Shown here piece after piece: positions 9,464 to 43,923 of a stretch of 64,000 nucleotides of DNA. The position numbers were made by a program, and so were the translations under genes. The DNA comes from Prevotella sp. GTDB taxonomy: Bacteria > Bacteroidota > Bacteroidia > Bacteroidales > Bacteroidaceae. The stretch is from positions 39,212 through 103,211 of the forward strand of contig JAFUSV010000131.1 of assembly GCA_017467565.1 (NCBI GenBank), given 5' to 3'. Within the stretch, counting starts at the first letter, position 1, and each line of letters begins with the position of its first letter. The notes under the pieces are model-generated. The model was given only the letters and a program-made list of their open reading frames with translations. It was not told where the DNA came from and ran no database searches.

Positions 9464-9631
9464 ATGAAAAAGAGATATCAGAGACCTACCGCAGAGGTTA
9501 TGAAAATAGAAACGACCTGCATCATTGCCACCAGTCTGACAGATACGGCAGGTGCCGACGGTTTGGGCAAAGGTGATGGCTGGACGCAAGGCGCAGCCAA
9601 TTCACGCGATGATGACTTCTGGGACGAATAG
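9464..9631 (+). CDS. Small protein, 55 aa, YxxP/IIATS type with acidic WDE tail
   Basis: Short gene preceded by AGGAGGAAAC, 21 bp after the large secreted protein. The sequence has a basic start (MKKRYQRP), an amphipathic stretch (EVMKIETTC), the motif IIATS at about residues 20-24, a Gly/Thr/Asp-rich middle and the tail SRDDDFWDE. The same plan (basic start, Y-x-x-P, V/I-x-x-x-E, two hydrophobics-x-x-S, variable polar remainder) appears in the small genes at 39818 and 43714. It has no hydrophobic signal core. It resembles a precursor or leader peptide, or a chaperone-like partner of the upstream exported protein; the function is unknown. Confidence 0.75.
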   Translation: MKKRYQRPTAEVMKIETTCIIATSLTDTAGADGLGKGDGWTQGAANSRDDDFWDE

Positions 9632-9652
9632 TTCCAAGAAACTTGCATATAT

Positions 9653-9692
9653 GGCGGTACGGCTTTCTCCGTGAGGACATGGGGCGTATGGC
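9653..9692 (+). other. Hairpin 1 containing TCCGTGAGGAC
   Basis: GGCnnTACG pairs with CGTAnnGCC around an internal loop, capped by TCC-GTGA-GGA with a GNRA tetraloop. The same cap and internal-loop bases recur 110 bp downstream in the terminator-like hairpin. Confidence 0.45.
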
Positions 9693-9759
9693 CTTTGCTG
9701 CTCCGTCAAGAGAACGGAACAAGATATTAATAAATTAGTTAAATTAACATTAAAATGAT

Positions 9760-9800
9760 GGTGGCGACTTATCCGTGAGGACGAGGCGCCGCCTTTTTTT
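9760..9800 (+). terminator. Hairpin 2 containing TCCGTGAGGAC, followed by T7
   Basis: GGTGGCG pairs with CGCCGCC (one G-U), with an inner TCC-GTGA-GGA cap, then seven T. It probably ends the 6515/9464 transcript. The conserved inner cap shared with hairpin 1 suggests more than termination. Confidence 0.65.
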
Positions 9801-9891
9801 GCATCTGTCATATCTTTCGATTACCTGTTCCTCAAAATAAGACATGGAGGCTGCATAATTTAAGTTGACTGATAAAATGGGGAAATGAGAA

Positions 9892-10190
9892 AAAAGTGTC
9901 ACTTTTGCGCTTAACATGCTGGCACATAGACGATTAGTATAGGTGACGCTTTTTCAGAAAGTGTCACTAAGTGTCACTCTGGTAAAACAAGTTGTTTTAC
10001 CTTGGAAAAGCACTTCTTCTCTTAGCTGTAAAACGCGGATTCACATGTAAAACAAGTTGTTTTACTTTCTGGAGTACATACTTAGTACACGTTTCTGACT
10101 AAAAAAGTGATGAAAAGTGACACTTTAAAAAGAAGTGTCACCTGTCTCAAACCCTTTGTGTATGGGCGTTTCAGACGAAAAGTGACACTT
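9892..10190 (+). repeat. Intergenic array of AAAGTGwCACTTT and GTAAAACAAGTTGTTTTAC palindromes
   Basis: Two copies of the perfect 19-bp palindrome GTAAAACAAGTTGTTTTAC (9982-10000 and 10047-10065) plus a half-site near 10028. They are interspersed with at least five copies of (A)AAGTG[T/A]CAC(TT), at 9892, 9959/9969, 10114, 10132 and 10178. No convincing ORF lies in 9632-10407. Confidence 0.85.
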
Positions 10191-10282
10191 CTGCGTTTTT
10201 TTATGATTTTATTTGATTGTAGTGTTGTAATAAAAATCTACCATACAACAGTATTTTAGGGTAAGACATTGAAGGGTGGAGG

Positions 10283-10361
10283 GTGGAGGGTGAAGTGAGA
10301 ATAGAATTGAAGCACCAATAGTGCATTCAGAACTGACCTCACTCCTCACTTCACACTCCAC
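10283..10361. terminator. Inverted simple repeats between convergent transcripts
   Basis: 10283-10299 and 10345-10361 are 17-base arms complementary except at one position (GTGGAGGGTGAAGTGAG type). They are built from GTGGAGG / CACTTCACACTC tandem units that extend over 10270-10375. The position between rightward and leftward genes fits a two-way terminator. Confidence 0.5.
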
Positions 10362-10407
10362 ACTTCACACTTCACGAAAAAGGGGGGGCTGCTTCAGTTT
10401 CTACAAT

Positions 10408-11658
10408 TCAAAAAGAAACTTTCGCGCTGTGACTGCCCGACTTGCCCGACACGCGGATGATGTACATGCCGTGCGTGGCAATGCCGAAGTCGACGATGAC
10501 GGTGTGGCGACCGAAACCCTGCTGCAGGGCGACGCCACCAGCGGTGAGCAGCTGCCAGCTGAACGACTCGCCCTCGGGACCCTCTATGCGGTACATGCCG
10601 GGGGTCTGGGTGGGCATGACGAGATAGCTGTCATCGGCCGTGGCGTTCACGTCGGTGATGCCAGCCTCGGCACCAAACAGCGGGGCTGCAGCCTCGGTGG
10701 AGGGGCGCATGCCCTGAATGGTGGGCCATCCGCCTGTGCCCCAGTTGATGCGGTCAAGATAAGTGACGCGACCAGCATCGATATTGTCGGCCTGGAATCC
10801 GTGGTAGAGCACCCAGGTCTGGCCGGCATCGTCCTCTACAAACTCTGAGCAGTGGCCGGGGCCGTAGACGGCTCCGCTCTTGTTGAGCAGCGGCGAGAAG
10901 TTGTCGCCGACGGCCGTGCGTCCGTTGCGGTCGACGTAGGGTCCGAAGAGGTTGCGCGAACGGGTCATCACCAGTCGGTAGGTGCTGTTAGCCCCCTCGC
11001 AGCACGAGCCAGCGGAACCTATGAGATAGTACCAGCCGTCGTGCTTGACAATCATGGTGGCCTCGATGAGTCCACCCGCTATCTTCGTCGGCGTAGCACC
11101 CTCCTTGAGCGAGAGCCCGTCGTCGCTGAGCTCTATGCCGTAGATGTCGTGGAAGGAGCCGAAGAAAAGGTACTTCTTGCCGTCGTCCTCGATGAAGAAG
11201 GGGTCGATGCAGTTCTCTATGCTTATCTCGCTGCTGAGGAACAGCTTGTGGGCATTCTTGAAGCTGCCGTTGGGACGGTCGCTGACGGCTACGCCGATGC
11301 CGTTCTCCCAGGTCTTGCCCCACTCGGACTTAGAGTAGTAGAGCACGTAGTGGCCGTCGAAGTAGTTGATGTCGGGGGCCCAGATAGCGCCGTTGGGTAC
11401 CATGTCCATGGGACGGGTGGCATCGGTGAAGGCCGTGCCGGCATAGCGCCAGGTGACGAGGTCCTTGGAGCGGTAGATGGGCACGTTGTGGGTGTCCTCG
11501 GTGGCATAGAGGTAGAAGTAGCCGTCCTTGGCCTTGATAACCGTGGGGTCGGGCAGCGAGCGGTTAATAACAGGATTACTGTACGTCGTCTGAGCGACGA
11601 CGTTAGATGTAAAAATGTAAAAATGTAAAAATGCAAAAATGGTCAGTATTCTCTTCAT
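10408..11658 (-). CDS. Glycoside hydrolase family 43 protein (arabinosidase/xylosidase-like)
   Basis: Exported five-bladed propeller hydrolase of 416 residues, last gene of the susCDE operon. The GH43 triad is visible: general base D37 (SLPDPTVIKAKDG), pKa-modulating D152 (NCIDPFFIEDDGKKY) and general acid E199 (GGLIEATMIV). In the family it cleaves alpha-L-arabinofuranosyl or beta-xylosyl linkages; the substrate cannot be read from sequence. The start chosen is MKRIL at 11658. A longer frame to 11748 only translates intergenic minisatellite (ISPICPMSP...). The signal-peptide core FAFLHFYIFTS is itself encoded by a TTTTTACAT simple repeat. The C-terminal 60 residues form a beta-rich tail ending GMYIIRVSG...KVSF, which resembles a T9SS-type domain. 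Confidence 0.92.
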   Translation of the reverse strand: MKRILTIFAFLHFYIFTSNVVAQTTYSNPVINRSLPDPTVIKAKDGYFYLYATEDTHNVPIYRSKDLVTWRYAGTAFTDATRPMDMVPNGAIWAPDINYFDGHYVLYYSKSEWGKTWENGIGVAVSDRPNGSFKNAHKLFLSSEISIENCIDPFFIEDDGKKYLFFGSFHDIYGIELSDDGLSLKEGATPTKIAGGLIEATMIVKHDGWYYLIGSAGSCCEGANSTYRLVMTRSRNLFGPYVDRNGRTAVGDNFSPLLNKSGAVYGPGHCSEFVEDDAGQTWVLYHGFQADNIDAGRVTYLDRINWGTGGWPTIQGMRPSTEAAAPLFGAEAGITDVNATADDSYLVMPTQTPGMYRIEGPEGESFSWQLLTAGGVALQQGFGRHTVIVDFGIATHGMYIIRVSGKSGSHSAKVSF

Positions 11659-11755
11659 GGGGCAAATAGGGCTTATGGGGCAAATAGGGCCAATGGGACT
11701 AATGGGGCTCATGGGGCAAATAGGGCTAATACGCCCTATAAGCCCCATGAGCTAT
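11604..11755 (-). repeat. Two adjoining simple repeats in the GH43 leader and signal peptide
   Basis: 11604-11641 is an ATGTAAAA-type repeat that encodes the GH43 signal peptide on the minus strand. 11655-11755 is about eleven units of the 9-bp CCCATnnG minisatellite, which fill the 107-bp gap between susE and GH43. Confidence 0.9.
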
Positions 11756-11765
11756 TATACGAGTA

Positions 11766-12926
11766 TTACTCAAATTCCAAGTGCAGGTCGTCGGCCAGCA
11801 GGTAGAGCTTGATGGTGTGCACACCCTTGGCCGATTCGGGCACCAGCCACTTGTTGTCGTCGCCGCCCTGATTGCGCGGACCGTCGACGGCTGTGTTCTG
11901 AGTAGGATCGGTGTTGTTGGCGGGTGCAAAGAAGAACTTGCCGCCGTAGTCGGTCTCCAGTCCTATCTTGAAGGTGCCCTCGGTGCCGTCGTGCGGTGGG
12001 AAGAACTCGCCCGTCCAGGCATAGACCCAAGGCTCGCGCAGGCCGCCTACCATCTGGAACATGCCCTGCGAGTTGTTGGGATTCCAACCTACGGAGCAGC
12101 CGTCGCCTACTATCCACATGTGTCCGGGCATGGGCAGCTGCACTATCTGTACCAGACGGCAGTCGTTGTACTCCGTGTTGGTATCGACGATGACGGTGTA
12201 TTCGCCCAGCACGTCGGTCGTGAACTCGGTGTATTCGCCCTCGGTGACGTACTCCATCTTCTGGCCGTCGCCCGAGCTGAGCATACCGTAGACAGGATAA
12301 GGCTCATCGGGGTTGGAGGTGAAGTGGAAGGTGCAGGGTGCCACGTTGAACGTCACCTCGTAGATACCCGTACCCAGCTGGCGCTGTTCCAGCGTCTCGG
12401 TGAACACGTTGCCACCCTCGTCGGTCATCACCATGTAGAGGTACTGAGGATACTTCTCGTAGCCGGTCATCGTAAACTCGACGGTAGAAACCTCAGGCTT
12501 GACGTAGCGCGTCTCGTTGCTGACGACGCTGAGCACTTGGGCTGTGACCTTGATAGCCTCGCCAGGCAGTGCCCAGCGGGCCATCATCGAGTTGAGCTGG
12601 TCGTGGGTCAGCTGCAGCTGTGTCTCCTCGGTCTCGATGTAATCGCTCTTCAGGTCCTTGGTAGCCGAGGGGTAGAGGCATACCTTGTAGGTCACCTTGT
12701 CGTCGGCCGAGATGGGGCTGGTGGCCTTGTCCCAGGTCAGGGTGACGGCCACATCGTTGGCTATACCCTTGTTCAGGATGATAGACTCTACAGAGCTCTT
12801 GACGTGCATCTCATCGGGATAGGACGGCAGTTCGAAGTACTCGGGGTCTTTATTGCAGGAGGTCAGGGCCGCAGCCACGGCACACACCATGAGTCCTGCA
12901 CGCAGAATATGATTGAATGTTTTCAT
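11766..12926 (-). CDS. SusE-like outer-membrane lipoprotein
   Basis: 386-residue surface glycan-binding lipoprotein. A lipobox (LTSC, Cys about 24) follows a short hydrophobic segment. The N-terminal Ig-like SusE domain begins ESIILNKGIANDVAVTLTW, and the C-terminal part has SusE/F-type binding domains (GHMWIVGDGCSVGWNPNN, then KFFFAPANN). In PULs these proteins hold glycan at the cell surface next to SusCD. The gene follows susD by 25 bp and precedes GH43, so it is the third gene of a leftward operon. Family assignment is good; the ligand is unknown. Confidence 0.88.
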   Translation of the reverse strand: MKTFNHILRAGLMVCAVAAALTSCNKDPEYFELPSYPDEMHVKSSVESIILNKGIANDVAVTLTWDKATSPISADDKVTYKVCLYPSATKDLKSDYIETEETQLQLTHDQLNSMMARWALPGEAIKVTAQVLSVVSNETRYVKPEVSTVEFTMTGYEKYPQYLYMVMTDEGGNVFTETLEQRQLGTGIYEVTFNVAPCTFHFTSNPDEPYPVYGMLSSGDGQKMEYVTEGEYTEFTTDVLGEYTVIVDTNTEYNDCRLVQIVQLPMPGHMWIVGDGCSVGWNPNNSQGMFQMVGGLREPWVYAWTGEFFPPHDGTEGTFKIGLETDYGGKFFFAPANNTDPTQNTAVDGPRNQGGDDNKWLVPESAKGVHTIKLYLLADDLHLEFE

Positions 12927-12951
12927 AACGCTGTATTGTTTTTTTTGATGG

Positions 12952-14919: not shown

Positions 14920-14924
14920 AATCT

Positions 14925-14958: not shown

Positions 14959-14961
14959 AAC

Positions 14962-28605: not shown

Positions 28606-31600
28606 ATGAAAAAGAACCTAAGATTTTTGCTTGTCTTGGCCATCGGATGGCTGACAAGCACCGGTGCCTTTGCACTGGAACAGGTTGACGGTGTCTATCA
28701 GATTGGTTCGGCACAGGACTTCAAGGAGTTTGCTGCTGTCGTAAACAGCGATGGACGCCAGCACAAGTTGAATGCTGTGGTCACACAGGACTTCACACTT
28801 GACGAATTGGTCATGGTTGGTGCGCCCAGCAATGCCTATTCAGGAACCTTCGACGGTCAGGGACACACCGTCACCATCGATTTCACGATGGAGACAGGAG
28901 GTCAGGACGGTGAATGTGGCCTTTTCCGCCGCATCAACGGTGCCACCATCAAGAACCTGAAGGTTGCAGGTAGCATCACGACCAAAGGCCAGCTGGCCGG
29001 TGGTGTCGTGTCAGGCATCTGGCAGACAGCCGTGGTGGAGAACTGTGTATCTACCGTAACCATCACTGACACACAAAGTGGTGACGGTACCCACGGAGGT
29101 ATCGTGGCTCGTGTCAGTGACAAGGGTGGTGCTAACGCTATCATCATCCGCAATTGCGCCTTCTTAGGCACCATCGAAGCTTCTGGCCGTACAGGCAGCG
29201 GCGGCATCCTGGGATGGCCCGACAATGCCGGCGGTGGTCAGGTGGTCATCGAGAACTGTCTGATGGCAGGTACATTGAACTTGGCTACGGGACAGGACAA
29301 CGATGTGATTGTGCGCAACAGCGCCACCGTCACCAACTGCTACTACGTTGCCCTGCAGGGAATGAACAACAGCAAGAATGCTACCTTGGCAACGGCTGAG
29401 CAGCTGGCCAGCGGTGAGCTCTGCTTCCTGCTGAACGGCAGCCAGAGCGCTACTCCCGCCTGGTTCCAGACCATCGGCACCGATGCCATGCCCCTGCCTA
29501 TGGGAACTGCTGTGGTTTATGCCAACGGCTCGCTGAATTGCGACGGCACGCCTAAGGGCGATGTCACCTACAGCAACACTTTCACTGAGCCTCTGCGCGA
29601 CGACCACCAGTGGAACGACTGGGGTTTCTGCTCTGTCTGCGACGAGATTCAGCCCGACTTCCTGAAGGCCGACGAGAATGGCTTCTACCCCATCGCTACC
29701 AAGCAGGACTACAACTGGTTCATGATGATGGTCAACTCGAAAGGACAGCCCAACATCAACGGTAAGCTGACGCAGGACCTTGACCTGAGCGACTACACCT
29801 TTATTCCCATCGGCGTCGACATGCGCAACTATGCCGGCACCTTCGACGGACAGGGCCATCGCATCAAGAACATGACGATTGACGGCACCAAGAAGGAGCA
29901 GGGTTTCTTCAGCACCTGTCAGGGTGGCGCCGTCATCAAGAACCTCATCATCGACAGCAGCTGTAAGATGGTAGGCACAGGCGGTAGCAATGTGGCTGCC
30001 CTCATCGGCTGCGTCAACCACAACAACTACAACAATGATGTCGTGCTGATCCAGAATGTAGGCAACGAGATGTCGTTCAACTGCTCGACAACCAACAATG
30101 CCGGTTTCATCGCCCGCGACTTCAGCAGTTTCCTGAATGTGAAAATAGAGAACTGCTACAACACCGGTAACATCATGGGTGGCACGGAGAATGGTGCCTT
30201 CACGGCATGGACACCGCGCGTCACCCTGACCAACTGCTGGAACACCGGTCGCATCGAGAAGACCGGCAACTACAACGGCAGCAAGTCGCTGGCACGTGGC
30301 AACCAGCCGCAGTTCATCAACAGCTACGACCTGAACAGCGAGAACACCGACAACGCCGGTGCACCCGAAGGCTATGCTGCCGAGTGGCTTGCCAGCGGTA
30401 AGATGGCTTATCTGCTCAATGGCAACAAGAGCACCGACGTAGCCTGGTATCAGGTCATCGGCACCGATGCTTATCCTTATCCGTTCGGCACAGCTGTGGT
30501 CTATGCTAATGGTGACCTGAAGTGCGACGGTATGACCCCGAAGGAGGGCAGCGAGCTCACCTTCTCGAACACCGAGGGCAGCAATGTCGATGCTCACCAG
30601 TTCAACGACTGGGGCTTCTGCTCTGTCTGCGACGCCCTCAATCCCGACTTCATGACGCCCAACGGCAATGGTCAGTTCGAGCTGGGCACCGACAAGCAGC
30701 TCAACTGGTTTGCCCACTATGCTACGAAGGTCAACGCCGCTGCTAATGCCGTCCTCACTGCCAACATCGACATGAAGGATGTCAACGGCTTCCCAGGCAT
30801 CGGCACTCCTACCAGCAAGTACACCGGTACCTTCGATGGTCAGAAGCACGTCATCAGCAACCTGACCATCGACAACCAGTCGACAGGCAACCCCGCTGGC
30901 TTCTTCAATAATGTCACCGCCGGTGCCGTCATCAAGAACTTCACCCTCGACAACACTTGCTACATCGTAGGTCACCACTTCGTAGGTGCTTTCGTGGGAC
31001 AGACCGACGGCAACGGCACCGTGCTCCTGCAGCAGCTGGGCAACGAGGCCGATGTCATGGCCTGGGAACAGAATGCAGGTGGTATCGTCGGCTGCAACAC
31101 CTCTGGTGAGCTGAAACTGACACTCGAGAACTGCTACAACACAGGTGCTATCAGCAGCGCAAGAGAGAGCGGTGCAGTCAGCGGATGGCTGGGCAACGAC
31201 GCCAAGGTCATCAACTGCTACAACATGGGTTCTGTACTGGGTGAGAACAGCGAGTCGTTCGCCCGTGGCAACAGCATCCAGACAACCAACTGCTTCAACG
31301 TCGACGCCTGGAAGGACCTGCCCGCAACACCCATCGAGGACTTCACCAACGGCACCGTTCTGGCCAAGCTGCAGGAGGCTGCTCCCTACGTATGGTACAG
31401 CAGTGCCGAGGAGGACGGTCACCCCGTGCTCTATGTCACTGAGTGGGGCGCACAGCAGCGCACACCGTATGCAGGCATTGCCGTTCAAGATGGCGACTTC
31501 TACCTCTACAACGTAGAGACAGGCTACTGGCTGCAGAACAATAACCGCCAGACCGTAGACTGGAACTCGCATGCCGAGCTCGACCCCGTAGGCTATGCCT

Positions 31601-34356
31601 TCGGTCTGAAGGCCATCGAAGGCGGCTGGCAGATTGACCCGAAGATGGGTAACAACCACAGCCTGAATGCCGGCAACCTCTACATGGATACCGGCGATGC
31701 CATGACTACATGGACCTTCGAACCTGTCGAGGCTGAAGGTGTCAGCAATGCCTATACCATCAAGTCGGGCGACGTCGTACTCGGCGCCAGCAACGACAAG
31801 TTCCTGCAGAAGACCACCAACAACTCCATCTGGCAGATTGTCACCAAGGAGGAGCGCCTGGCCGTCATGCAGGCTGAATATCCCAATGCCAAGGGTACTG
31901 CTCCTGTCGACCTCTCATGGCTCATCCCTGGCGGCGACTTCAACATTGCCCACGAGACGGCCATGCAGCTCAATGGTACCACAGGTATCGAGGCTGGTGC
32001 TGCCTTCGTCTCCGGCCAGACTCAGGGTAACGGTGTGCGCGAGATTTGGAACAACGCCACCGGCTATGACATCAACTACACGCTCAATGACCTGCCCGAC
32101 GGCATCTATCGCTTCACCGTCAGCGGATACTATCGCGACGGCAAGACTACCGACATCGGTGCCAAGCATAAGAATGGTACAGAGGAACTCCGCGCCATAG
32201 TTTATGCCAACGATCAGGAACAGCCCCTGATGTCTGTCGTAGCTCCCGAGCGTACTGCTTCCGGCCAGGGCTGCAACGTGAACACCAGCGGTTACTTCGT
32301 GCCCGACAACATTGGCGACGCTGCCATTGCTACCCGCGAAGGTATCTATGTGAACACCCCGATTGAGGTCAACCTCACTGGCGGCACACTCAAGATTGGT
32401 GTACGCAAGGAAGGTGGTGCTGACGGCGACTGGACCATTCTCGACTACTTCAAGGTGCAGTACTTCGGACCTGAGTCGCTCGACCTCTATCTCAGTCTGC
32501 TGCAGAATGCCATCAACGAGGCCGAGGCCTTCGATGCCTCAGTCACATCCGATGCGCTGGCTGCCGAGCTGACCACGGCCATCAACGAGGCCAAGGCTGC
32601 TCTCAACGCTACTACCAAGGAGGATATCACGGCTGCTACCAATCAGCTCAACACTGTTCTCGCTGCTGCCAAGAGCGTCAACGTCACAGCACTGAAGCAG
32701 ACCGTCGCCCTGGCTAAGGAGGAAGGTCTCAACACAGCAGCCGGCGAGACTGCCATCGTCGAGGCTAAGAATGCATCCGAAATAGAGCAGCCTCTCTACG
32801 ACCTGCGTGCTGCACGTAAGCTCAACGCTATGCGCATGCCCGACATCTACACTGGCAGCAAGCCCGCCGAGGGCAAGGTCTATCTGTTCAACGTCGGTAC
32901 TGGTACCTTCCTGGGCACCGGCTCTGACTGGAACACTCACGCTGCTGTCGACCAGGCAGGTATCGAGATTGAACTCGTCAACGTGAACAACGAGGAGTAC
33001 ACCTTCAAGTTCAAGACCGGCCGCGGTGGTGGCTGGATGGCATACAACGGCTATGTAGACACCAATGGTCAGGACTTCTGGCACTTCATGCCCGTAGAAG
33101 GCAAGGAGGGTGTCTACAACATCAGCTCTACCGGCAACGACGGCTTCCTGCTGGGCTACGATCCCAACGGCGGCACCGACGGTAAGAAGTACTGGAACAC
33201 CATCGCTATCGACCGCACTGGCGTTGACAACCCCATGAACCAGTGGAAGGTCATCACTCCCGCCGAGCGCGAGGCTCTCTTGGCCAAGGCTACCGAGGGT
33301 GATCCCGTCGACGTGAGCTACCTCATCAAGAATGCCAGCCTGAACCGTCAGGACGGCTACGACATGTGGGAGAAACTGTGCGACGGCGGCAATGGCGGTG
33401 CACGCGTATCTACCGTGACCGATAGTAACAACGACCGTGCTGCCGACTACGCTTACGAGTACTTCGAGCCCAACTCGTTCAGCTTCACCCAGACCATCGA
33501 AGGTCTCACACCCGGTAAGTACGAAGTCAGCGTACAGGGATTCTTCCGCAATGGTAACGGCGGTGCCCAGGCCGAGGCTTACAACAACGGTGAGGAGCTG
33601 AAGCAGCTGGCTTACCTCGTGGCCAACGACCAGACAGCCCTGCTGCCCAACATCGCCAGCGTGCTGAGCAAGGTGCCCGGCATAGGCGACCTGCAGGCTT
33701 GCAAAGACGGTGAATTCCCCAACATGCCGCAGTCGGCCATCGAGTACTTCGAGACAGGTTACTACAAGACCACGCTGCCCGTCACCGTAGGTGAGGACGG
33801 CACTCTGACTCTCGGTGTCAAGAAAGACAGCAAGGAGCTGAATGGCGACTGGGTTGTCATTGACAACTTCCGTCTGCGCTATCTGGGCGACAACAGCATC
33901 AAGACCATGTCTATCCTCGGTGACTTCACCGGCGGATGGGAGATGGAGAAGGCAGCCGACATGACTCAGAGCACGGAGAACCCCGCCATCTGGACACTCC
34001 ACGTCGAGGACTTCGAAGTGAAGTTCGAAGAGGGACAGACCGAGCGCACCTATGAGTACAAGGCTACCGCCAACCACGCATGGGGCGTCTACGAGCTGCC
34101 TGCACTGGGCAACCAGAACTGGGTATTCGGCGAGACTCGCGACTACAAGGCCGGTGTCTACGATCTCGACTTCACCGTCGATACCGAGAACCACACCCTG
34201 ACGCTCGTGCCCACCTTCGACGAGGTGGCCACCGCTATCAGCGAGATGAAGGCCGACGCCAAGCAGGCACCCGTCTACAACCTCAACGGCCAGAAGGTGG
34301 AGAAGGCCCAGAAGGGTCTCTACATCATCGGAGGCAAGAAGGTCGTGCGTAAGTGA
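28606..34356 (+). CDS. Giant GLUG multidomain surface protein, 1916 aa
   Basis: Exported protein: signal peptide, then EQVDGVYQIGSAQDFKEF and three GLUG beta-helix blocks (to about 960) separated by two CDG...H...FCSVCD modules. Next comes a trefoil-like module (FYLYNVETGYWL..., about 965-1045), a jelly-roll-like domain (DLSWLIPGGDF..., about 1103-1285), a FIVAR-like helical pair (about 1290-1400), a second trefoil-like module (VYLFNVGTGTFLG, about 1424-1545), a second jelly-roll domain (about 1565-1765), a SusF-like sandwich (ILGDFTGGWEM) and the C-terminal YNLNGQKV...GLYIIGGKKV motif. Several modules suggest glycan binding. Unlike the other YNLNGQ-type genes it has no small gene after it; a terminator follows. 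Confidence 0.85.
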   Translation: MKKNLRFLLVLAIGWLTSTGAFALEQVDGVYQIGSAQDFKEFAAVVNSDGRQHKLNAVVTQDFTLDELVMVGAPSNAYSGTFDGQGHTVTIDFTMETGGQDGECGLFRRINGATIKNLKVAGSITTKGQLAGGVVSGIWQTAVVENCVSTVTITDTQSGDGTHGGIVARVSDKGGANAIIIRNCAFLGTIEASGRTGSGGILGWPDNAGGGQVVIENCLMAGTLNLATGQDNDVIVRNSATVTNCYYVALQGMNNSKNATLATAEQLASGELCFLLNGSQSATPAWFQTIGTDAMPLPMGTAVVYANGSLNCDGTPKGDVTYSNTFTEPLRDDHQWNDWGFCSVCDEIQPDFLKADENGFYPIATKQDYNWFMMMVNSKGQPNINGKLTQDLDLSDYTFIPIGVDMRNYAGTFDGQGHRIKNMTIDGTKKEQGFFSTCQGGAVIKNLIIDSSCKMVGTGGSNVAALIGCVNHNNYNNDVVLIQNVGNEMSFNCSTTNNAGFIARDFSSFLNVKIENCYNTGNIMGGTENGAFTAWTPRVTLTNCWNTGRIEKTGNYNGSKSLARGNQPQFINSYDLNSENTDNAGAPEGYAAEWLASGKMAYLLNGNKSTDVAWYQVIGTDAYPYPFGTAVVYANGDLKCDGMTPKEGSELTFSNTEGSNVDAHQFNDWGFCSVCDALNPDFMTPNGNGQFELGTDKQLNWFAHYATKVNAAANAVLTANIDMKDVNGFPGIGTPTSKYTGTFDGQKHVISNLTIDNQSTGNPAGFFNNVTAGAVIKNFTLDNTCYIVGHHFVGAFVGQTDGNGTVLLQQLGNEADVMAWEQNAGGIVGCNTSGELKLTLENCYNTGAISSARESGAVSGWLGNDAKVINCYNMGSVLGENSESFARGNSIQTTNCFNVDAWKDLPATPIEDFTNGTVLAKLQEAAPYVWYSSAEEDGHPVLYVTEWGAQQRTPYAGIAVQDGDFYLYNVETGYWLQNNNRQTVDWNSHAELDPVGYAFGLKAIEGGWQIDPKMGNNHSLNAGNLYMDTGDAMTTWTFEPVEAEGVSNAYTIKSGDVVLGASNDKFLQKTTNNSIWQIVTKEERLAVMQAEYPNAKGTAPVDLSWLIPGGDFNIAHETAMQLNGTTGIEAGAAFVSGQTQGNGVREIWNNATGYDINYTLNDLPDGIYRFTVSGYYRDGKTTDIGAKHKNGTEELRAIVYANDQEQPLMSVVAPERTASGQGCNVNTSGYFVPDNIGDAAIATREGIYVNTPIEVNLTGGTLKIGVRKEGGADGDWTILDYFKVQYFGPESLDLYLSLLQNAINEAEAFDASVTSDALAAELTTAINEAKAALNATTKEDITAATNQLNTVLAAAKSVNVTALKQTVALAKEEGLNTAAGETAIVEAKNASEIEQPLYDLRAARKLNAMRMPDIYTGSKPAEGKVYLFNVGTGTFLGTGSDWNTHAAVDQAGIEIELVNVNNEEYTFKFKTGRGGGWMAYNGYVDTNGQDFWHFMPVEGKEGVYNISSTGNDGFLLGYDPNGGTDGKKYWNTIAIDRTGVDNPMNQWKVITPAEREALLAKATEGDPVDVSYLIKNASLNRQDGYDMWEKLCDGGNGGARVSTVTDSNNDRAADYAYEYFEPNSFSFTQTIEGLTPGKYEVSVQGFFRNGNGGAQAEAYNNGEELKQLAYLVANDQTALLPNIASVLSKVPGIGDLQACKDGEFPNMPQSAIEYFETGYYKTTLPVTVGEDGTLTLGVKKDSKELNGDWVVIDNFRLRYLGDNSIKTMSILGDFTGGWEMEKAADMTQSTENPAIWTLHVEDFEVKFEEGQTERTYEYKATANHAWGVYELPALGNQNWVFGETRDYKAGVYDLDFTVDTENHTLTLVPTFDEVATAISEMKADAKQAPVYNLNGQKVEKAQKGLYIIGGKKVVRK

Positions 34357-35834: not shown

Positions 35835-35840
35835 AATATT

Positions 35841-36373: not shown

Positions 36374-36421
36374 ATCCGTAAGTAATAAAAAAACCTAACA
36401 ACAATAAATTTTAGCGCTAAA

Positions 36422-39400
36422 ATGAAAAAGAACTTTAAACTACTGCTGCTCACCCTCATCATGGGTGGAGGTCTCTTTGCATCTGAGGCTATGGCCTTGG
36501 ATCAAGACAACTATGGTGTCTACCAGATTGGGACGGCAGATGACTTTGAAGCATTTGCCAAACTTATCAATGAGGGAAATTCAAATCCGATGAAATTAAA
36601 TGCTGTTCTGACAGCAGATATTGATCTTCGCTCAAAAGGCAATTGCATGATAGGAACTATTGGACACACTTATGGGGGTGAATTTGATGGTCAAGGTCAT
36701 ACAATTACTATTGATTACAAACATGATACTTCTTTAGATATGGATGAAGGCGAATTAGGCTTAATTCGTCGATTAAGAGATGGAACAGTAAAAAACTTAT
36801 TGGTAAACGGCAACATAACAACTTGTAACAAATGCGCTGGTGGTATTGTTTCTGGTATATGGTATACTGGAACTATTGAAAACTGCGTAAGTAACGTAAC
36901 GATAACTGATTCTGGTTCTGGAGATGCTACACATGGTGGTATATTAGCTCGTATAAGTAATAAAAGCAACATTACCATCAAAAACTGTGCCTTTTATGGA
37001 ACTATAGAAGCTTCTGATCGAGAAGGCAGTGGTGGTATTATTGGATGGGCTGATTATGGCAATAGTGAGAATGCAGAAACTAAAATTATGAACTGCGTAA
37101 TGGGAGGCACACTTCATTTGAAGAAAAATAAAGATAATGATGTCTTTGTCAGAAACAATGTGTCTATAACAAACAGCTATTATGTTGCTCAACAGGACAT
37201 GAACAACACCAACAACACTTCTGTGTCTCAAAAAGACTTAAATGCGCTTAAGAATGCTTTAGGTAGTGATTGGTCAGAAATCTACAATGGAGCCGCACCT
37301 CTGCCTAACCAGTTTGTGCCAACTAAAAACAGTGATAATTACTACGAACTGAGCACTGCCAGCCACATGCGCCAATTTGCAGAATTAGTAAACAACAGCA
37401 ATAACAGTGCCAATGGTAAGATGATGAATGACATCAACCTCAGTAATATCTGGACACCGATAGGCAACAATGACCACCGCTATGCTGGCACCTTTGACGG
37501 TCAGTTTCATATGATAAATAATCTTACTGTTGACCTTAACCAAGAAAACGTTGGTATTTTTGGAATTGTCCAAAGTTGTACGATAAAAAATCTCATTTCG
37601 GGTCCTAACAACAGTTTCAAAGGAACAAAAGGTGTCGGTGGTATTATCGGCAAAGGAGATGGTGGTGGTGATAATGGCATTAAGCTTACCTGTGTCGGAA
37701 ATGAGAGCGCTGTTTATGCTACCAGTCAGGATGCTGGTGGTCTGATAGGCTATATTAGCCATCTATCCCAAGATGTCACAATCACTAATTGCTATAATAC
37801 AGGAAATGTGAAAGCAGGGGACAATGAGAATAATCACGAAGCTGCTGCAATAGCAGGTTGGTTGGGCCAAAAAACCGTTAGCATTAAAGGTTTTTGGAAT
37901 ACAGGTTCAATTACAGGCAGTGAGTATGGTAATGCTCTCTGGAGAAATGGAGATGGTTCTGTGACTAAAGAAAGAATATATAACCTGCATAATATCGATA
38001 ATGGAGCAACTAAGTTTACTCAGGATCAATTATCTAATGGTGAGCTATGCTACCTTTTGAACAACTCTTCATCAGAAATTCCTGTTTGGCATCAGACCCT
38101 CGGAACTGATAATTATCCTGTGCCATTTAGTTCTGGTCACAAGGTTATTTACAACCATACCGATTTCTATTCAAATATTAAGACAATTAGTGGTGGTTTC
38201 TTTGAAATAACAAATGCCGACGATTTGGAATCGTTTGCCTATACCGTTAATAGTGGTAACACAACTGCCAAAGGTAAACTGACCACAGACATTGATATGT
38301 CTGGATATAACAACTTCCCTGGCATCGGTGGGTCTAAGACAACAGACTCTGATCCTAACCCGATTTGTTTTGCAGGTGTTTTAGATGGTGATTTTCATAA
38401 GATTATGAATTTAAAGGTTGACAAGACAGGATTAGAGGCTGTAGGTTTAGTGAACAGTGCTACTGCTGGTGCTACCATCAAGAATCTTACAATAGCATCT
38501 ACATGTGAATTTAAAGGTAGAAAGGCTGTTGGTGCTTTTGTCGGCGGCACTTATAACAGTTCTGGTACTGTTACCTTCCTGAACTGTGGTAACGAGGGTA
38601 GTGTCACTTCTGATGGTCAGAATGCTGGCGGTATCCTTGGTTGCAACTTCAATGGAAATATTGCTATTCACATGACGAACTGTTACAATATAGGAACCAT
38701 TAAGGGTAATGAAAGTGGTGGTATCTCTGGTTGGCTTAGCAATAATCCGGTACTCAGAAACTGCTATAACATGGGTGAGGTAGACGGCAATGATTACTTT
38801 GCCCGCATGAATAATGATGGTGCAAGCCTAACTAACTGCTTCGACTCGAAATCTACATGGGAAGCTCTTTCTTCTACTACCGAAAATAATGGAAATAGTT
38901 TTAACGTTGCAACAGTCTTCACAACATGTTTCGATGATGCCCAAGGTGGCTCTGTCTGGCGCATGGAGTTCGATGGCACTCCTCACCCCGTGCTCTACGA
39001 TGCAGCTATAGTATATAAGGAGGACTTCCCCAACAGACCTGTGGCACAAAACACTGCTAAAAAAGTTAAGCTCTATCGTACCACTGTCGCTGAAACATGG
39101 AACACATTCAGTGTACCTTTCGCATTAACCAAAGAACAGGTTGACTCTGTATTTGGTGGCAAAGCAAAGGTTGCAGTACTGACCAGTGATGATAATGACA
39201 TTCTACACTTCACCAACGTTGATGCTATTGAAGCAGGTAAAGCATATCTGGTAAAGCCCACCGAGGCTAATGCTGCAGGAAACTATAAAGAAATTTGGGT
39301 CACAGTAACTAAGAACAACCCTGAGACTCCTGAAACAGCCTATGGCGGATTCAAGTTCATCGGTGTCTTTGCACCCACCACACTCACTGGGAACGAATAT

Positions 39401-39667
39401 GTAATGACTACTAACAAAGAAACTGGCGGTAACACCATCAAGGGTGTTAATACTGGTACTGAGATGAAAGGCTTCCGTGCTTACCTGAATGCTGTTAGTC
39501 TCGCCCGTGCCACCAGCTTCGTCATCGACGATGAAGGCACTACAGGAATCATCACCGCTACTGGCGATGTCATTGAGAATGGTAAGATGTACAACCTGGG
39601 TGGACAGCGTGTCAAAGAGCCTCAGCATGGACTCTATATTGTGAACGGTAAAAAATACATCAAATAG
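36422..39667 (+). CDS. GLUG-repeat surface protein, 1081 aa, A+T-rich
   Basis: Signal peptide ends AMA (about 25), then LDQDNYGVYQIGTADDFEAF and about a dozen GLUG turns (G-x-x-H-x-I...N-C-Y-N-T/I-G). A C-terminal region, KVKLYRTTVAETWNTFSVPF (about 880-1040), has the pattern W-N-T-F-S-V-P-F / KAYLVKP, as in the 40026 and 49120 proteins. The last 26 residues carry the motif YNLGGQRV...GLYIVNGKKYIK. The coding sequence is clearly A+T-richer, with A/T-ending codons, than the GLUG genes at 23255 and 28606. This suggests separate acquisition or weaker codon selection. A small gene follows 150 bp downstream. Confidence 0.85.
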   Translation: MKKNFKLLLLTLIMGGGLFASEAMALDQDNYGVYQIGTADDFEAFAKLINEGNSNPMKLNAVLTADIDLRSKGNCMIGTIGHTYGGEFDGQGHTITIDYKHDTSLDMDEGELGLIRRLRDGTVKNLLVNGNITTCNKCAGGIVSGIWYTGTIENCVSNVTITDSGSGDATHGGILARISNKSNITIKNCAFYGTIEASDREGSGGIIGWADYGNSENAETKIMNCVMGGTLHLKKNKDNDVFVRNNVSITNSYYVAQQDMNNTNNTSVSQKDLNALKNALGSDWSEIYNGAAPLPNQFVPTKNSDNYYELSTASHMRQFAELVNNSNNSANGKMMNDINLSNIWTPIGNNDHRYAGTFDGQFHMINNLTVDLNQENVGIFGIVQSCTIKNLISGPNNSFKGTKGVGGIIGKGDGGGDNGIKLTCVGNESAVYATSQDAGGLIGYISHLSQDVTITNCYNTGNVKAGDNENNHEAAAIAGWLGQKTVSIKGFWNTGSITGSEYGNALWRNGDGSVTKERIYNLHNIDNGATKFTQDQLSNGELCYLLNNSSSEIPVWHQTLGTDNYPVPFSSGHKVIYNHTDFYSNIKTISGGFFEITNADDLESFAYTVNSGNTTAKGKLTTDIDMSGYNNFPGIGGSKTTDSDPNPICFAGVLDGDFHKIMNLKVDKTGLEAVGLVNSATAGATIKNLTIASTCEFKGRKAVGAFVGGTYNSSGTVTFLNCGNEGSVTSDGQNAGGILGCNFNGNIAIHMTNCYNIGTIKGNESGGISGWLSNNPVLRNCYNMGEVDGNDYFARMNNDGASLTNCFDSKSTWEALSSTTENNGNSFNVATVFTTCFDDAQGGSVWRMEFDGTPHPVLYDAAIVYKEDFPNRPVAQNTAKKVKLYRTTVAETWNTFSVPFALTKEQVDSVFGGKAKVAVLTSDDNDILHFTNVDAIEAGKAYLVKPTEANAAGNYKEIWVTVTKNNPETPETAYGGFKFIGVFAPTTLTGNEYVMTTNKETGGNTIKGVNTGTEMKGFRAYLNAVSLARATSFVIDDEGTTGIITATGDVIENGKMYNLGGQRVKEPQHGLYIVNGKKYIK

Positions 39668-39669
39668 GA

Positions 39670-39767
39670 CCACGAATTAAACGAATTATACGAATTTGCT
39701 AAAGAATGGATGTTTCAATAAAAATAAGGACGAAATAGGGAATTAGTGAAATTCGTATAATTCGTGG
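39670..39767. repeat. Inverted repeat with CGAATTATACGAATT arms
   Basis: CCACGAATTATACGAATTT (with one extra 9-bp unit, 39670-39697) faces its complement at 39749-39767. The loop is about 50 nt. It lies between the GLUG gene and the small gene. Confidence 0.8.
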
Positions 39768-39817
39768 TAGATAATTAAAGTCACACATTATTAATATATA
39801 TATAGGAGAAAAGAATT

Positions 39818-39964
39818 ATGAATACGAAGAAACAATATATGGCCCCCAACTTAGACGTGGTAGAGCTTTATGAAGACCTGATGCTGGGTGCATCAGCTAA
39901 TGGAGAAGGAATAGATGTAAAAACCAATGAGACCTATGATTCCCAATATGAAGAAATCATCTGA
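39818..39964 (+). CDS. Small protein, 48 aa, YxxP/MLGAS type
   Basis: Preceded by TAGGAGAAAAG. Basic start MNTKKQYMAP, amphipathic LDVVELYEDL, then MLGAS at about residues 22-26, and a polar acidic tail (YDSQYEEII). Its plan matches the small proteins at 9464 and 43714. All three follow exported proteins ending YN-L-x-G-Q-R-V. No signal-peptide core. Missed easily because of its size; supported by the ribosome-binding site and the shared pattern. Confidence 0.72.
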   Translation: MNTKKQYMAPNLDVVELYEDLMLGASANGEGIDVKTNETYDSQYEEII

Positions 39965-40025
39965 TGCGGAGGGCAATAAAACAATGTGAGTTTTCGAACT
40001 TTATTAACATAAAAAACTAACAACA

Positions 40026-43000
40026 ATGAAAAGAACTATTAAATTACTTCTCCTGACTGTCCTCGGAACGTGGATGGCAGGAAGTGCATGGGCACTGGAT
40101 CAAGACGCTGATGGCGTCTATCAGATTGGCTCAGCACAGGACTTGGCTGATTTTGCCAACAAAGTGAATGAAAGCCGACAGTATGGTCTTAATGCTGTGC
40201 TGACAGCTGACATTGATTTCACAAGCAACAGTGAAATGATCGGTGTGGAAGGTAAGCCCTACAACGGAACGTTTGACGGACAAGGCCATAAGGTGACTGT
40301 TGCCTATAACACCACTGAAAGTGAAACAGCTCTGTTCCGTCGTACAAATGGTGCTACTATCAAAAATCTTGCTGTGACTGGTACCATTACAACTACCGGT
40401 CAATTCGCAGGTGGTATAGTTTCTGGCATCTGGGAAACAACTACTTTGGAAAACTGTATTGCAGACGTTGACATTTCCGATAGTGGTAGTGGTGATGGTA
40501 CTCACGGCGGTATTGTAGCTCGCATCAGCAACAAAAATCAGATTTTGATTAAAAACTGCGCTTTCACTGGTACACTCAATGCGCCCAACCGCGAGGGAAG
40601 CGGTGGCATTATCGGATGGCCAGATAATGGCGGTACGGCCGTGAAGATTCAGAACTGTCTGGTCATTGGTACAATTACACTGAAGCAGGGATCGAATAAC
40701 GATATTATTGTTCGCAACTCAGCTACTGTTACCAACACTTATTTCTTTGACCAGCAAAACCTGAACAATCAAAATGGTGGTATTCAGACTACTACAGCCA
40801 TTGCTTCCAGTGGCGAGCTTTGTTGGTGGCTGAATGAAAGTCAGGCAGACACTCCACACTGGTATCAGGAAATTGGTACCGATGCCACTCCATCACCTAT
40901 CGGAACTGCTGTTGTCTATTCCAACGGCGATCTGAACTGTGATGGAAGTTCAAAGGGTACAGCTACGTATGGTAACACGAATAGCTCAAACCGTGATCCC
41001 CATATGTTTGAAGGTGGTATATGTATTTCATGCAAGAAAGAACTTGTAAAAGAAGGAGACTATTATCAGCTCGGCTGCGCTGACGCACTTATCCGCTTTG
41101 CAGAGATTGTAAATGGTGGCGAGGGCGCCTCAAATGCCGTATTGACTGCCGACATTGACATGACAGGTAAGGGCTGGACTCCCATAGGACAAGATATGCG
41201 CGACTTTGCCGGGCATTTCAATGGTCAGAACCATAGTATCAAGAACCTTGTTATTAATAATTCCAGTTATAACAATCAGGCTCTCTTCGGTCAAGTCGTC
41301 GGTACGGCTGTTATTGAAAATGTTATTATGGATGCTTCATGCTCCATCAAGGGTAATGAACATGTGGCAGGTATCCTGGCACGCGTCTGGGGCAATGGAG
41401 CACAGGTCAAGAACTGTAAAAACTATGCTGCTATCGAAGCTGCAGGCAGCTATGCCGGAGGTATCGTTGGAAGTACCAACCGCAGTATTACTATCTCTGG
41501 TTGTGTAAACTATGGTACCGTAAAAGGTGGCAACCGCGTGGCTGGTATTCTGGGAAGCATTTGGGATACTGATGGTATTGTTGTCGAAAAATGCGGCAAT
41601 GAAGGTACCATCACTGGTACCGGTGCCAATGCCGGCGGTATTGTAGGCTGCTCGGAAAAGAAAGTAGATATCCTCAACTGCTATAGTATTGCTAATGTTA
41701 CAGGTGGCAACGAGTCAGCTGCTTTGTGTGGTTGGATGGGCTCTGGTAATTCTTCTGTTAAGAACTGCTACAGCACGGCTACTGTTTCTGGTCTCGACGG
41801 ATCATATTATCTGTATCGCAAGACTGATATCACTGCATCAAACAACTACCAACTGACAGGCATGCCAGGAACCCAGGGAACAGCTTTCACGACAGAGCAG
41901 AAGGAAAGCGGCTGGCTGGCTTATCATCTGAATGGTAGCAGCAGCACAGACGTGGTATGGTATCAAGTTATACCCACCGATCTTTATCCTGTGCCATTTG
42001 GAGAGGCTATAGTCTATCTCAATGGTGACTTGAATTGTGATGGTACCTCAAAGGGTACTGACTCTTACTCAAATACTGCAGGTTCCAATCAAGATTCTCA
42101 TCAGTTTGCAAATGGTTTCTGCTCTGTTTGCGACTCTTATGACCCTGACTACATGACAGCATCAAGTGGCTACTATGAGGTTACTGATGGTGTTCAGCTG
42201 CGCTGGACAGCCGTTCACTCGCAAGAGGCCACCAATGCTGGTATCAAGGTAAAACTGATGAACGACATCGATATGGACGGCATTGCTTTCGATGGCTTTG
42301 GTTCGAATCTGTCCGAGGATAATCGTTTCAAGGGTGAGATTGACGGACAGCGTCACAAGATTTTCAATCTTAAGATGAATGCTGACCGCCAAGGTGTAGG
42401 TCTGGTAAACACTGCTACTGTCGGCGCTCTCATTCAGAACCTGACCATGGCCAGCTCTTGCGATATCAAGGGAACAAGCGCTGTGGCTGCCTTCATCGGT
42501 GCCGTGCGTGGTTCGTCTGGTGACCTCTTTATCAAAAATTGTGGTAATGAAGGTGCCGTGACAGCCAGTGGTGCTAACGGCGGTGGCTTCATCGGCTGCA
42601 AATATGATGACAACGTTATTCCTAACTTCACCAACTGCTATAATGTTGGTGTCATTCATAGCGGTAACGATGGTGGTAGTTTCTCCGGCTGGATGCCAAA
42701 AGCTAAGTTGACCAACTGCTATAGCATCGTTGATCCTGCTGAAAAGGATGGCAACGGCGTGAGCTATGGTTTCGAGCAGGGCAAGCAGTTTGCACGAGGT
42801 GGGGATATCCAATTAAACAACTGCTACGACTTCGGTACAGGTGACTGGGGTCAAAACAACGGTTCTTGGGGTTCCGTCTTCGAAAAGGATAAAGGTAAGA
42901 TTGCTGAGGTGAACGAGACTGAGATGGGTCGTGTCTTCGCAGGACTCTTCGATGCAGAGGGCGGTAACGTCTGGCGCATGGAATATGACGGCTGGGCTCA

Positions 43001-43673
43001 CCCCGTGCTCTACGATCCCGCTAATCTGGTGCTGAGCGAGAATGTACCCAACCGCTACATCAACAAAACAGGCATTAACTTTACCCTGAAGCGTACACTG
43101 GTGAAAAACAATTGGAATACGATCTGCCTGCCCTTCGAGCTGAATACCACCAATCAGCAGTTCCTGTTCGGTCTTGGCGAATACAAGATTGCTGAGCTGA
43201 AAGGTGTCGATGGCGATGGCGAGACATTACAGTTCGAGACTGTCACTGGTACAATGACGGCTGGTAAACCTTATCTGGTGATGCCTATCCAAGATGTGAC
43301 AGAGAAGTTGTTTAACAACATAGACATCACTGCCGAGACTCCCACTGCCATAACCGCCGGTGACTTCGCTTTCACTGGTATCTATGAGCCTACTCTGATT
43401 GCTGAGAACGACCTCTTCGTAGCTACTGGCAACAAACTGCAGCCCAGCGACGGAACAGGTAAGCTGAAGGGTTTCCGCGCTTACTTCAAGGTTAACAACT
43501 CTAGTGCCCGTGCCACACAGTTCACGGTAGACGGTGGAACAACTACCAGTATCGAGGCTATCGACAATGAGCACTGGACAATGGGTAACTACTACAACCT
43601 GAATGGTCAGCGCGTTGACAAACCTACAAAGGGTATGTACATCGTCAACGGCAAGAAGGTGGTTGTGAAGTGA
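40026..43673 (+). CDS. GLUG-repeat surface protein, 1215 aa
   Basis: Signal peptide (about 1-23, SAWA), then LDQDADGVYQIGSAQDLADF. Three GLUG beta-helix blocks with two CDG...H...C-x-x-C modules (ending ICISCKKE and FCSVCDSY) between them. A C-terminal beta region follows (RTLVKNNWNTICLPFEL, KPYLVMP), then the motif YNLNGQRV...GMYIVNGKKV. The gene is moderately A+T-rich. The 69-residue gene 40 bp downstream is probably co-transcribed. A surface or adhesive role is inferred from the fold only. Confidence 0.85.
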   Translation: MKRTIKLLLLTVLGTWMAGSAWALDQDADGVYQIGSAQDLADFANKVNESRQYGLNAVLTADIDFTSNSEMIGVEGKPYNGTFDGQGHKVTVAYNTTESETALFRRTNGATIKNLAVTGTITTTGQFAGGIVSGIWETTTLENCIADVDISDSGSGDGTHGGIVARISNKNQILIKNCAFTGTLNAPNREGSGGIIGWPDNGGTAVKIQNCLVIGTITLKQGSNNDIIVRNSATVTNTYFFDQQNLNNQNGGIQTTTAIASSGELCWWLNESQADTPHWYQEIGTDATPSPIGTAVVYSNGDLNCDGSSKGTATYGNTNSSNRDPHMFEGGICISCKKELVKEGDYYQLGCADALIRFAEIVNGGEGASNAVLTADIDMTGKGWTPIGQDMRDFAGHFNGQNHSIKNLVINNSSYNNQALFGQVVGTAVIENVIMDASCSIKGNEHVAGILARVWGNGAQVKNCKNYAAIEAAGSYAGGIVGSTNRSITISGCVNYGTVKGGNRVAGILGSIWDTDGIVVEKCGNEGTITGTGANAGGIVGCSEKKVDILNCYSIANVTGGNESAALCGWMGSGNSSVKNCYSTATVSGLDGSYYLYRKTDITASNNYQLTGMPGTQGTAFTTEQKESGWLAYHLNGSSSTDVVWYQVIPTDLYPVPFGEAIVYLNGDLNCDGTSKGTDSYSNTAGSNQDSHQFANGFCSVCDSYDPDYMTASSGYYEVTDGVQLRWTAVHSQEATNAGIKVKLMNDIDMDGIAFDGFGSNLSEDNRFKGEIDGQRHKIFNLKMNADRQGVGLVNTATVGALIQNLTMASSCDIKGTSAVAAFIGAVRGSSGDLFIKNCGNEGAVTASGANGGGFIGCKYDDNVIPNFTNCYNVGVIHSGNDGGSFSGWMPKAKLTNCYSIVDPAEKDGNGVSYGFEQGKQFARGGDIQLNNCYDFGTGDWGQNNGSWGSVFEKDKGKIAEVNETEMGRVFAGLFDAEGGNVWRMEYDGWAHPVLYDPANLVLSENVPNRYINKTGINFTLKRTLVKNNWNTICLPFELNTTNQQFLFGLGEYKIAELKGVDGDGETLQFETVTGTMTAGKPYLVMPIQDVTEKLFNNIDITAETPTAITAGDFAFTGIYEPTLIAENDLFVATGNKLQPSDGTGKLKGFRAYFKVNNSSARATQFTVDGGTTTSIEAIDNEHWTMGNYYNLNGQRVDKPTKGMYIVNGKKVVVK

Positions 43674-43713
43674 GAGAAGAACTGAGTGAAAACCTATAAA
43701 AACAGATATGACT

Positions 43714-43923
43714 ATGAATAAGAGAAATCTATATATCTGCCCCAGCACTCAGGAAGTGCTCGTGCAACTGGAAGAGATGATAACAACCTCTAACACCAAG
43801 GCCACAGTTAATGGAACAGATGCACTGGAACCAGAACCCACTCCTGGTAATGCTAGCGGTGGTCTGTCTCGTCGCAAGGACATCTGGGCCGATCCGGAGG
43901 AGGAAGAAGAAGAACTTCAATAG
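43714..43923 (+). CDS. Small protein, 69 aa, YxxP/MITTS type with poly-Glu tail
   Basis: Start MNKRNLYICP (an ATG two codons earlier, at 43708, is also in frame). Then QEVLVQLEE and MITTS at about residues 22-26, a Thr/Asn/Pro-rich middle, LSRRKDIW and an acidic end (PEEEEEELQ). Shares its N-terminal pattern with 9464 and 39818 and the W-plus-acidic ending with 9464. Located 40 bp after a YNLNGQRV-type exported protein. Confidence 0.75.
   Translation: MNKRNLYICPSTQEVLVQLEEMITTSNTKATVNGTDALEPEPTPGNASGGLSRRKDIWADPEEEEEELQ

Follow-up and report, generated by a model that had tools for sequence, protein, structure and literature searches.

Three small genes behind genes for exported proteins

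The 64,000-nucleotide stretch of Prevotella sp. DNA analysed here, in the following called the window (contig JAFUSV010000131.1, positions 39,212 to 103,211), contains three small genes, each located directly behind a gene for a large exported protein, and these genes, their products and their relatives in other genomes are the subject of this study. The original prediction, made from the sequence alone, had placed them at 9464-9631, 39818-39964 and 43714-43923 with products of 55, 48 and 69 residues, which is exact in every case; the predicted spacing of 21-150 bp behind the exported gene was measured as 21, 150 and 40 bp. For the gene at 43714-43923, an alternative in-frame start codon (ATG 43708) would extend the product to 71 residues. 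All three proteins show the pattern described for them, i.e. Y-x-x-P followed by a hydrophobic pair, x-x and Ser, with the Ser located 19 residues past the Tyr of YxxP (3/3). Scans against Pfam and NCBIfam returned nothing meaningful for the three proteins (two weak Pfam matches with E values of 0.0063 and 0.082 remained below the cut-offs), and a search of PDB sequences with the small-protein profile gave no matches.

The preceding genes, all on the plus strand, encode exported proteins of 975 residues without a Pfam match at E ≤ 1 (6515..9442), of 1081 residues with a GLUG match below the Pfam cut-off (36422..39667) and of 1215 residues (40026..43673). Each of these partners ends in a short C-terminal signal of the type IX secretion system (T9SS) kind (9353..9439, with motifs B, D and E recognized by eye, 39581..39664 and 43584..43670), and a slice with a conserved pre-tail domain, whose limits are approximate, precedes it (8720..9343, 38945..39568 and 42951..43574). 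No tail or secretion-tail family was reported when seven large proteins of the window were scanned. The window also holds a PorZ homologue (57009..59084, plus strand; PF21544, E 5.5e-47), and therefore a T9SS component is encoded within it.

By analogy with the numbering used for the precursors of linear polyphosphorylated peptides (LPP) of Bacillota (PMC13381572), the small proteins can be divided into a putative leader and a putative core. In the first protein the predicted leader comprises residues 1-21 (9464..9526) and the predicted core, which starts with ATS and would thus carry the Ser at core position 3, occupies 9527..9631. The second and third proteins would each have a leader of residues 1-23 (39818..39886 and 43714..43782), followed by cores starting with GAS (39887..39964), which is without Trp, and with TTS (43783..43923). 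All of these features are on the plus strand and the core coordinates include the stop codon.

The small proteins form a family with a conserved N-terminal module

The resemblance among them clearly exceeds what chance would produce. A profile built from the three small proteins, the check that the original prediction had proposed, yields 14 matches in the source genome (G000) at E ≤ 10, of which 11, including the three proteins themselves, have E ≤ 3e-4. With a 32-row profile the number of matches in this genome, whose assembly is 72.65% complete, rises to 26. The 23 members with E < 1e-3 are considered confident, and the three excluded ones (E 0.007-0.03) are a headless fragment, a 174-residue fusion and a protein at a contig edge. 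Homologues are not confined to the source genome: of 60 genomes sampled from its GTDB genus (source genome included), 54 have at least one family match at E ≤ 0.1, with a maximum of 35 per genome. In a phylum-wide sample of 296 genomes, matches at E ≤ 0.01 are present in the source genome and in one genome of another Bacteroidota family (G099), where they are weak (1.2e-4 to 0.007).

To describe the sequences, 72 distinct members were surveyed, including 40 from nine other genomes that were selected among the matches listed, namely high scorers and a few with odd long frames. All 72 carry [YF]xxP, and in 65 a Ser is located at +19 or +20 from the Tyr, after the hydrophobic pair. The resulting N-terminal module consists of a basic start, YxxP, alternating hydrophobic residues, the hydrophobic pair, mostly small residues and the Ser. 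The leader is the best-conserved part, whereas the C-terminal part is variable and strongly acidic; the cores have an average charge of -7.4, a Cys is present in the core of a single member, and 65 of the 72 members have a Trp within the final 32 residues as part of a C-terminal W/acidic motif.

Leaders of this kind have been described for a class of peptides that are ribosomally synthesized and post-translationally modified (RiPPs), in which the precursor is bound by a RiPP recognition element (RRE). Most discrete RREs of lasso peptide systems bind leaders with the motif [Y/W]xxPx[L/V/I/A/F/Y], and LPP precursors contain YxxPxVLxHQxIxFETxxS, with cleavage after T-1 and a core that begins with AQS and is phosphorylated at Ser3; LPP is described there as restricted to Bacillota and as having no known function (PMC13381572). 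In the open-access literature searched, neither the small-protein family nor PqqD in Prevotella was found to be described, nor were RiPP precursors that are scattered and located next to T9SS cargo, and in the part available to us of a survey of Bacteroidales RiPPs (PMC10352776), PqqD appears in a reference only. The earlier statement that no function has been described thus stands for the family itself in this literature, but a close functional analogue has been described (PMC13381572).

Two loci show the module in an unusual context. At L190 (G000:C112, 2457-2981), it fronts a 174-residue protein, the remainder of which is unnamed by Pfam (one match below the cut-off, E 0.016). At L252 (G070:C14, 1609-2943), the open reading frame of a precursor continues in frame into a signal-peptide-like stretch and a DNA/RNA non-specific endonuclease domain, which may represent a fusion or a sequence error.

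Most small genes are paired with genes for surface proteins

In the source genome, which has 97 tail matches at E < 1e-3, 19 of the 23 confident members are located at most 400 bp downstream of a tail gene on the same strand (binomial p = 5e-23 assuming that 4.2% of the genes are tailed, and 6e-16 assuming 10%). The small genes on C117, C118 and C123 end operons in which a giant tail protein is followed by two lipoproteins, the second of which is, in the case of C118, fimbrillin-like according to Pfam. Giant tail proteins of 3,000-3,900 residues are encoded at L131, L170, L171 and L172 (G000 C9, C117, C118 and C123), each followed by a lipoprotein-like gene, and a small precursor gene comes next at three of these four loci, the C9 stretch ending early. 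For the small gene on C93, no tail gene was found in the 3 kb upstream that were examined. In the nine other genomes, 36 of the 40 chosen members have a tail gene within 400 bp. In a sample of one locus per genome, which overlaps partly with these 40 members and with the rows of the search profile, 20 of 28 members have a tail gene within the same 400 bp, and the next gene is lipoprotein-like in four of the remaining eight. Nine lipoprotein-like neighbours of members without a tail gene were scanned against Pfam, with three Mfa_like_1 matches at two loci and no match for the other six, and we therefore limit the label fimbrillin-like to L251, L057 and C118. In G099, four small genes are located 13-19 bp upstream of large proteins with lipoprotein-like starts, and Pfam names neither of the two that were scanned. 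Overall, the proposed tie to exported proteins is upheld and can be sharpened: most of the neighbours are T9SS-type cargo that carries a specific C-terminal domain, and lipoproteins account for some of the others.

The short T9SS C-terminal domain of Prevotella intermedia has a cleavage consensus PT/GI followed by motif B (Tyr, Gly, basic residue), motif D (GxY/GxN, then Ile) and motif E (PMC11969387). The alignments of the partner tails fit a PT/GI-like cut site and motifs B, D and E by eye. The portion of that account available to us makes no mention of small downstream genes, and it concerns the partners and not the small proteins. In these terms, the endings YNLxGQRV and YDLQGRR would be alternative spellings of motif B. 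The original prediction had further stated that small genes follow the YNLxGQRV ending and never YDLQGRR, which is correct within the window but fails elsewhere, as small genes are located behind YDLQGRR at L040, L262, L277 and L280. YN[LM]xG is mildly enriched among partners (10/17 vs 19/78 of the others, p = 0.008, uncorrected). Because both spellings precede small genes and the enrichment is mild, the spelling was ruled out as the deciding feature, and the tail itself was replaced in this role by the pre-tail domain.

This domain, roughly 190 residues long, immediately precedes the cut site and has the landmarks WNTxxLPF, PYLxK, FRAY and AR...DDxTTGI. It is unnamed in Pfam and NCBIfam (a single one of 27 proteins gave a weak match, to DUF7414). 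A profile trained on 48 partners from other genomes detects it in all 17 source-genome partners and in 8 of the 78 other tail genes (p = 4e-13); two of the eight (C148_33935 and C61_92) stop at contig edges and may be partners, and are still counted among the eight. This profile supersedes an earlier one from three core sequences (17/17 vs 4/78 in a leave-one-out analysis), and a regular expression that targets the domain end separates the groups worse (14/17 vs 11/78). A simple pattern count (27/95) contains false matches and was set aside; the comparison does not cover two of the 97 tail matches. With the reverse profile, built from the 17 source-genome partners, the domain was found upstream of 34 of 59 members elsewhere, from which we conclude that it is divergent or not universal. 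Among 326 control genes, the same approach detected no domain and one tail. Within the window, the domain rule accounts for the absence of a small gene beside the gene at 28606-34356, which ends in YNLNGQ and is without the pre-tail domain. An exception is the C10 protease with a Spi inhibitor domain (49120-52263, plus strand), which has the pre-tail domain and a short T9SS-type signal and is not accompanied by a small gene.

Small-gene numbers track those of the pre-tail domains across the 60 genomes (rho 0.75, and 0.58 with tails held constant), and the tail count adds nothing once the domain has been counted (-0.09); the genomes do not represent independent observations. The seven genomes without PqqD have 7 domain matches vs 159 tails, and the other 53 have 686 vs 2502.

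A cassette of RRE, kinase and protease lies apart from the precursors

PqqD (PF05402) is present in 53 of the 60 genomes, and its gene sits in a cassette with an HprK-like kinase and a signal-peptidase-like protease; in the source genome, the three genes are located on C109 (L221, 4767-6470). The PqqD-type RRE exceeds the Pfam cut-off, and its profile matches the TfuB1, PbaB1 (9x90) and LppB (9x8z; E 0.021) chains. In sequence comparisons, HPr kinase is a weak match for the kinase profile (E 0.003), but the kinase model (pLDDT, the predicted local distance difference test score, of 95) shows the PEPCK/HprK fold with a P-loop. For the protease, the model (pLDDT 85.5) shows a LexA/UmuD/signal-peptidase fold, and SM and HR are invariant.

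We surveyed the best 80 loci on named contigs found with the kinase, with flanks of up to 5 kb on each side. All three genes are present in 77 of them, and in 75 the order is kinase, protease and RRE on one strand; L327 and L346 are complete and lack this standard arrangement, and at three short loci (L317, L335 and L340) the RRE was not seen. At none of the 80 loci was a precursor found at E ≤ 1e-3 within these flanks, and a simple motif check revealed no ABC (ATP-binding cassette) exporter. Carriers of the cassette include Segatella albensis, Hoylesella buccalis, H. marshii, Prevotella veroralis, P. koreensis, P. ihumii and P. amnii, as well as Hallella multisaccharivorax and an Alloprevotella. 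Next to the kinase, 16 of 20 cassette stretches encode a conserved protein that is unnamed in Pfam and 114-177 residues long (e.g. L221, 6397-6909, minus strand).

Outside the 80-locus sample, a precursor is located beside a cassette at L240 (G007). At this locus (G007:C31, 8338-11787), a divergent cassette adjoins a radical SAM protein, a second PqqD protein and a Cys-rich small protein of 46 residues, which carries the same leader-like head; judging from this head, the leader may have been reused with another chemistry. In G099, a protease, an RRE, a 369-residue gene, an ABC exporter and a kinase lie side by side (L433), adjoining genes that by eye resemble those for polysaccharide export, and a second locus (L434) combines kinase, RRE, lipoprotein and a weak precursor match (E 0.0087). 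The layout in G099 resembles that of Bacillota LPP and links LPP to the stripped cassette of Prevotella. The 369-residue genes of G099 and G018 stand where a nucleotidyltransferase might be, and a search of PDB sequences gave no identification for that of G099.

Precursors, cassette and exporter co-occur

In the 60 genomes, precursors and PqqD are both present in 53 and both absent in 6, which leaves one discordant genome (G032, with one small-protein match and no PqqD; Fisher p = 1.4e-7, uncorrected for ancestry). In the phylum-wide sample, the kinase profile finds ten genomes at E ≤ 1e-8, and the strong matches are those of the source genome (1.6e-145) and G099 (5.5e-67), the next being 2.9e-24. 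These two genomes are the same two that have precursor matches at E ≤ 0.01.

An MsbA-like exporter follows the divergent cassette in G070 and G063 and the RRE in G018; in other genomes its homologue is located elsewhere, in several cases by eye behind a nadK-like gene. Among 13 genomes that have the cassette, 12 contain a close homologue (E < 1e-60), compared with none of three that lack it, and more distant ABC proteins were found in all 16. At L451 (G020:C33, 1501-1749), a piece of 83 residues is 73% identical to the exporter; G020 has neither PqqD nor precursor matches, and the piece may be a relic of recent loss.

Interpretation and alternative explanations

From these results we conclude that the three small proteins are probably RiPP-like precursors that share one cassette and are paired with surface proteins, a reading to which we assign a probability of about 0.75. 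The original prediction had proposed precursor peptides or dedicated partners of secretion. The first part gains support from the RRE-type leader, the co-occurrence with the cassette and the exporter pattern, and the tie to a partner holds in the refined form given above.

Several observations weigh against this reading. The expected-spacing Ser is missing in 7 of the 72 members, and the full LPP motif is not reproduced, as HQ and FET are not conserved and the distance from Tyr to Ser is 19-20 residues vs 18 in LPP. The number of independent pairs in the phylogenetic comparison given below is small. The kinase reaches 16.9 bits against the NCBIfam family HprK_rel_A, whose cut-off is 200, and the protease remains below the Pfam S24 cut-off; since both are under the family cut-offs, their identities are deduced from fold and motifs. 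The source genome, the assembly of which is incomplete as stated, yielded no close exporter homologue (E < 1e-60). Four genomes with the RRE (G004, G016, G024 and G063) have only 1-3 precursor matches, and six genomes have 6-23 precursors yet at most three pre-tail domains, so that the partner rule fails to cover them.

An unlikely alternative is that the small proteins are unmodified dedicated partners, such as a chaperone, escort or stabilizer of the adjoining T9SS cargo or lipoprotein, and are unrelated to the RRE cassette. This would agree with the tight gene pairing, with the acidic tails and with the correlation between family size and the number of pre-tail domains. However, the N-terminal module corresponds to a leader of the RRE-binding type and co-occurs with the RRE/kinase cassette, and it is the leader that is most conserved, whereas the part expected to contact a specific partner varies.

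Rather improbable, too, is a link by shared ancestry only, in which the cassette has other substrates and is lost together with the precursors through lineage effects. The number of independent comparisons leaves room for it: on supported branches there are four independent pairs, of which three or four, depending on random pairing, are concordant and none opposite (sign test, median p = 0.125), and on all branches there are five to six. On the other hand, the losses are scattered over a leucyl-tRNA synthetase tree (5 and 6 changes) and separate even near-identical sisters, as G063 has PqqD and small proteins and G061 has neither. Moreover, G099 belongs to another family and has both, while the 294 other genomes of the phylum-wide sample lack both a precursor match (E ≤ 0.01) and a strong kinase match. 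The 80 cassettes, beside which other substrate families were not sought, also have no precursor of this family as neighbour.

If the small proteins are precursors, maturation could proceed as follows. The RRE would bind the YxxP leader, as its homology and the position of the motif suggest, and on the same grounds the kinase would phosphorylate the conserved Ser at core position 3. The protease would cut just before the xxS triplet, by analogy with LPP, and the ABC exporter, judged by homology, would carry the acidic core out of the cell. In the least certain step, the mature peptide might cooperate with the product of the adjacent surface-protein gene, e.g. by binding its pre-tail domain; we consider this because most precursors are encoded with a surface protein of the T9SS or lipoprotein type. 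A more specific proposal, which we offer tentatively and which may well prove wrong, is that the orphan cassette, together with an ABC exporter, supplies each of many T9SS-anchored adhesin-like proteins or fimbrillins with a (poly)phosphorylated acidic peptide of its own, so that the cell surface would carry a matched set of such peptides, and that each peptide binds to, or is built into, its co-encoded protein via the pre-tail domain.

An LPP-like system would thus exist in Prevotella and its relatives from rumen, gut and mouth, where a single genome can have as many as 35 precursor matches. As enzymes and precursors lie apart, RiPP searches based on clusters would tend to overlook it. The pairing arrangement suggests that surface proteins of this kind are served by modified peptides specific to them, and since the neighbouring gene proposes a partner for most peptides, their function can be tested pair by pair. 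The family also offers a way into the study of a large group of T9SS cargo proteins and of a pre-tail domain as yet unnamed in Pfam and NCBIfam.

Comparison with known systems

In the prochlorosins and other RiPPs with scattered precursors, one set of maturation enzymes serves many precursor genes, as is the case here, although the chemistry differs. To our knowledge, precursors of the prochlorosin type are not individually tied to genes for surface proteins.

Paeninodin-like lasso peptides have in common with the present family a [Y/W]xxP leader recognized by an RRE and an HprK-type kinase (PMC13381572). It is nevertheless very improbable that the small proteins are themselves lasso precursors of the paeninodin kind, i.e. 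phosphorylated and macrolactam-threaded, because the cassette protease is of another class (S24/S26-type) and neither a macrolactam synthetase nor a B2 cysteine protease was recognized by eye among the cassette neighbours of the source genome and G095, for which no profile search was made.

The closest known system is LPP of Bacillota, as described for the lpp cluster of Paenibacillus alginolyticus (PMC13381572). Both comprise small precursors with a conserved YxxP...S N-terminus and a variable C-terminus, in which the Ser is third in the core by alignment, and a discrete PqqD-like RRE. An HprK-like kinase is common to both, here by fold and P-loop, as is a protease resembling archaeal-type signal peptidases, here by the S24/S26 fold with SM and HR and without a direct comparison with LppS. 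The MsbA-like exporter is likewise shared, but is located beside the cassette in some genomes only. Unlike in LPP, the hosts belong to Bacteroidota, the cassette usually stands alone, and the precursors are scattered, mostly beside surface-protein genes; their cores are strongly acidic and usually contain a Trp near the end, and no nucleotidyltransferase was recognized by eye beside the cassettes listed. Since the precise motif and the single-cluster layout of LPP are lacking, we do not assign the family to LPP itself. By analogy, it may instead represent an LPP-like variant of Bacteroidota, in which a shared cassette would act on scattered precursors with a chemistry predicted to resemble that of LPP.

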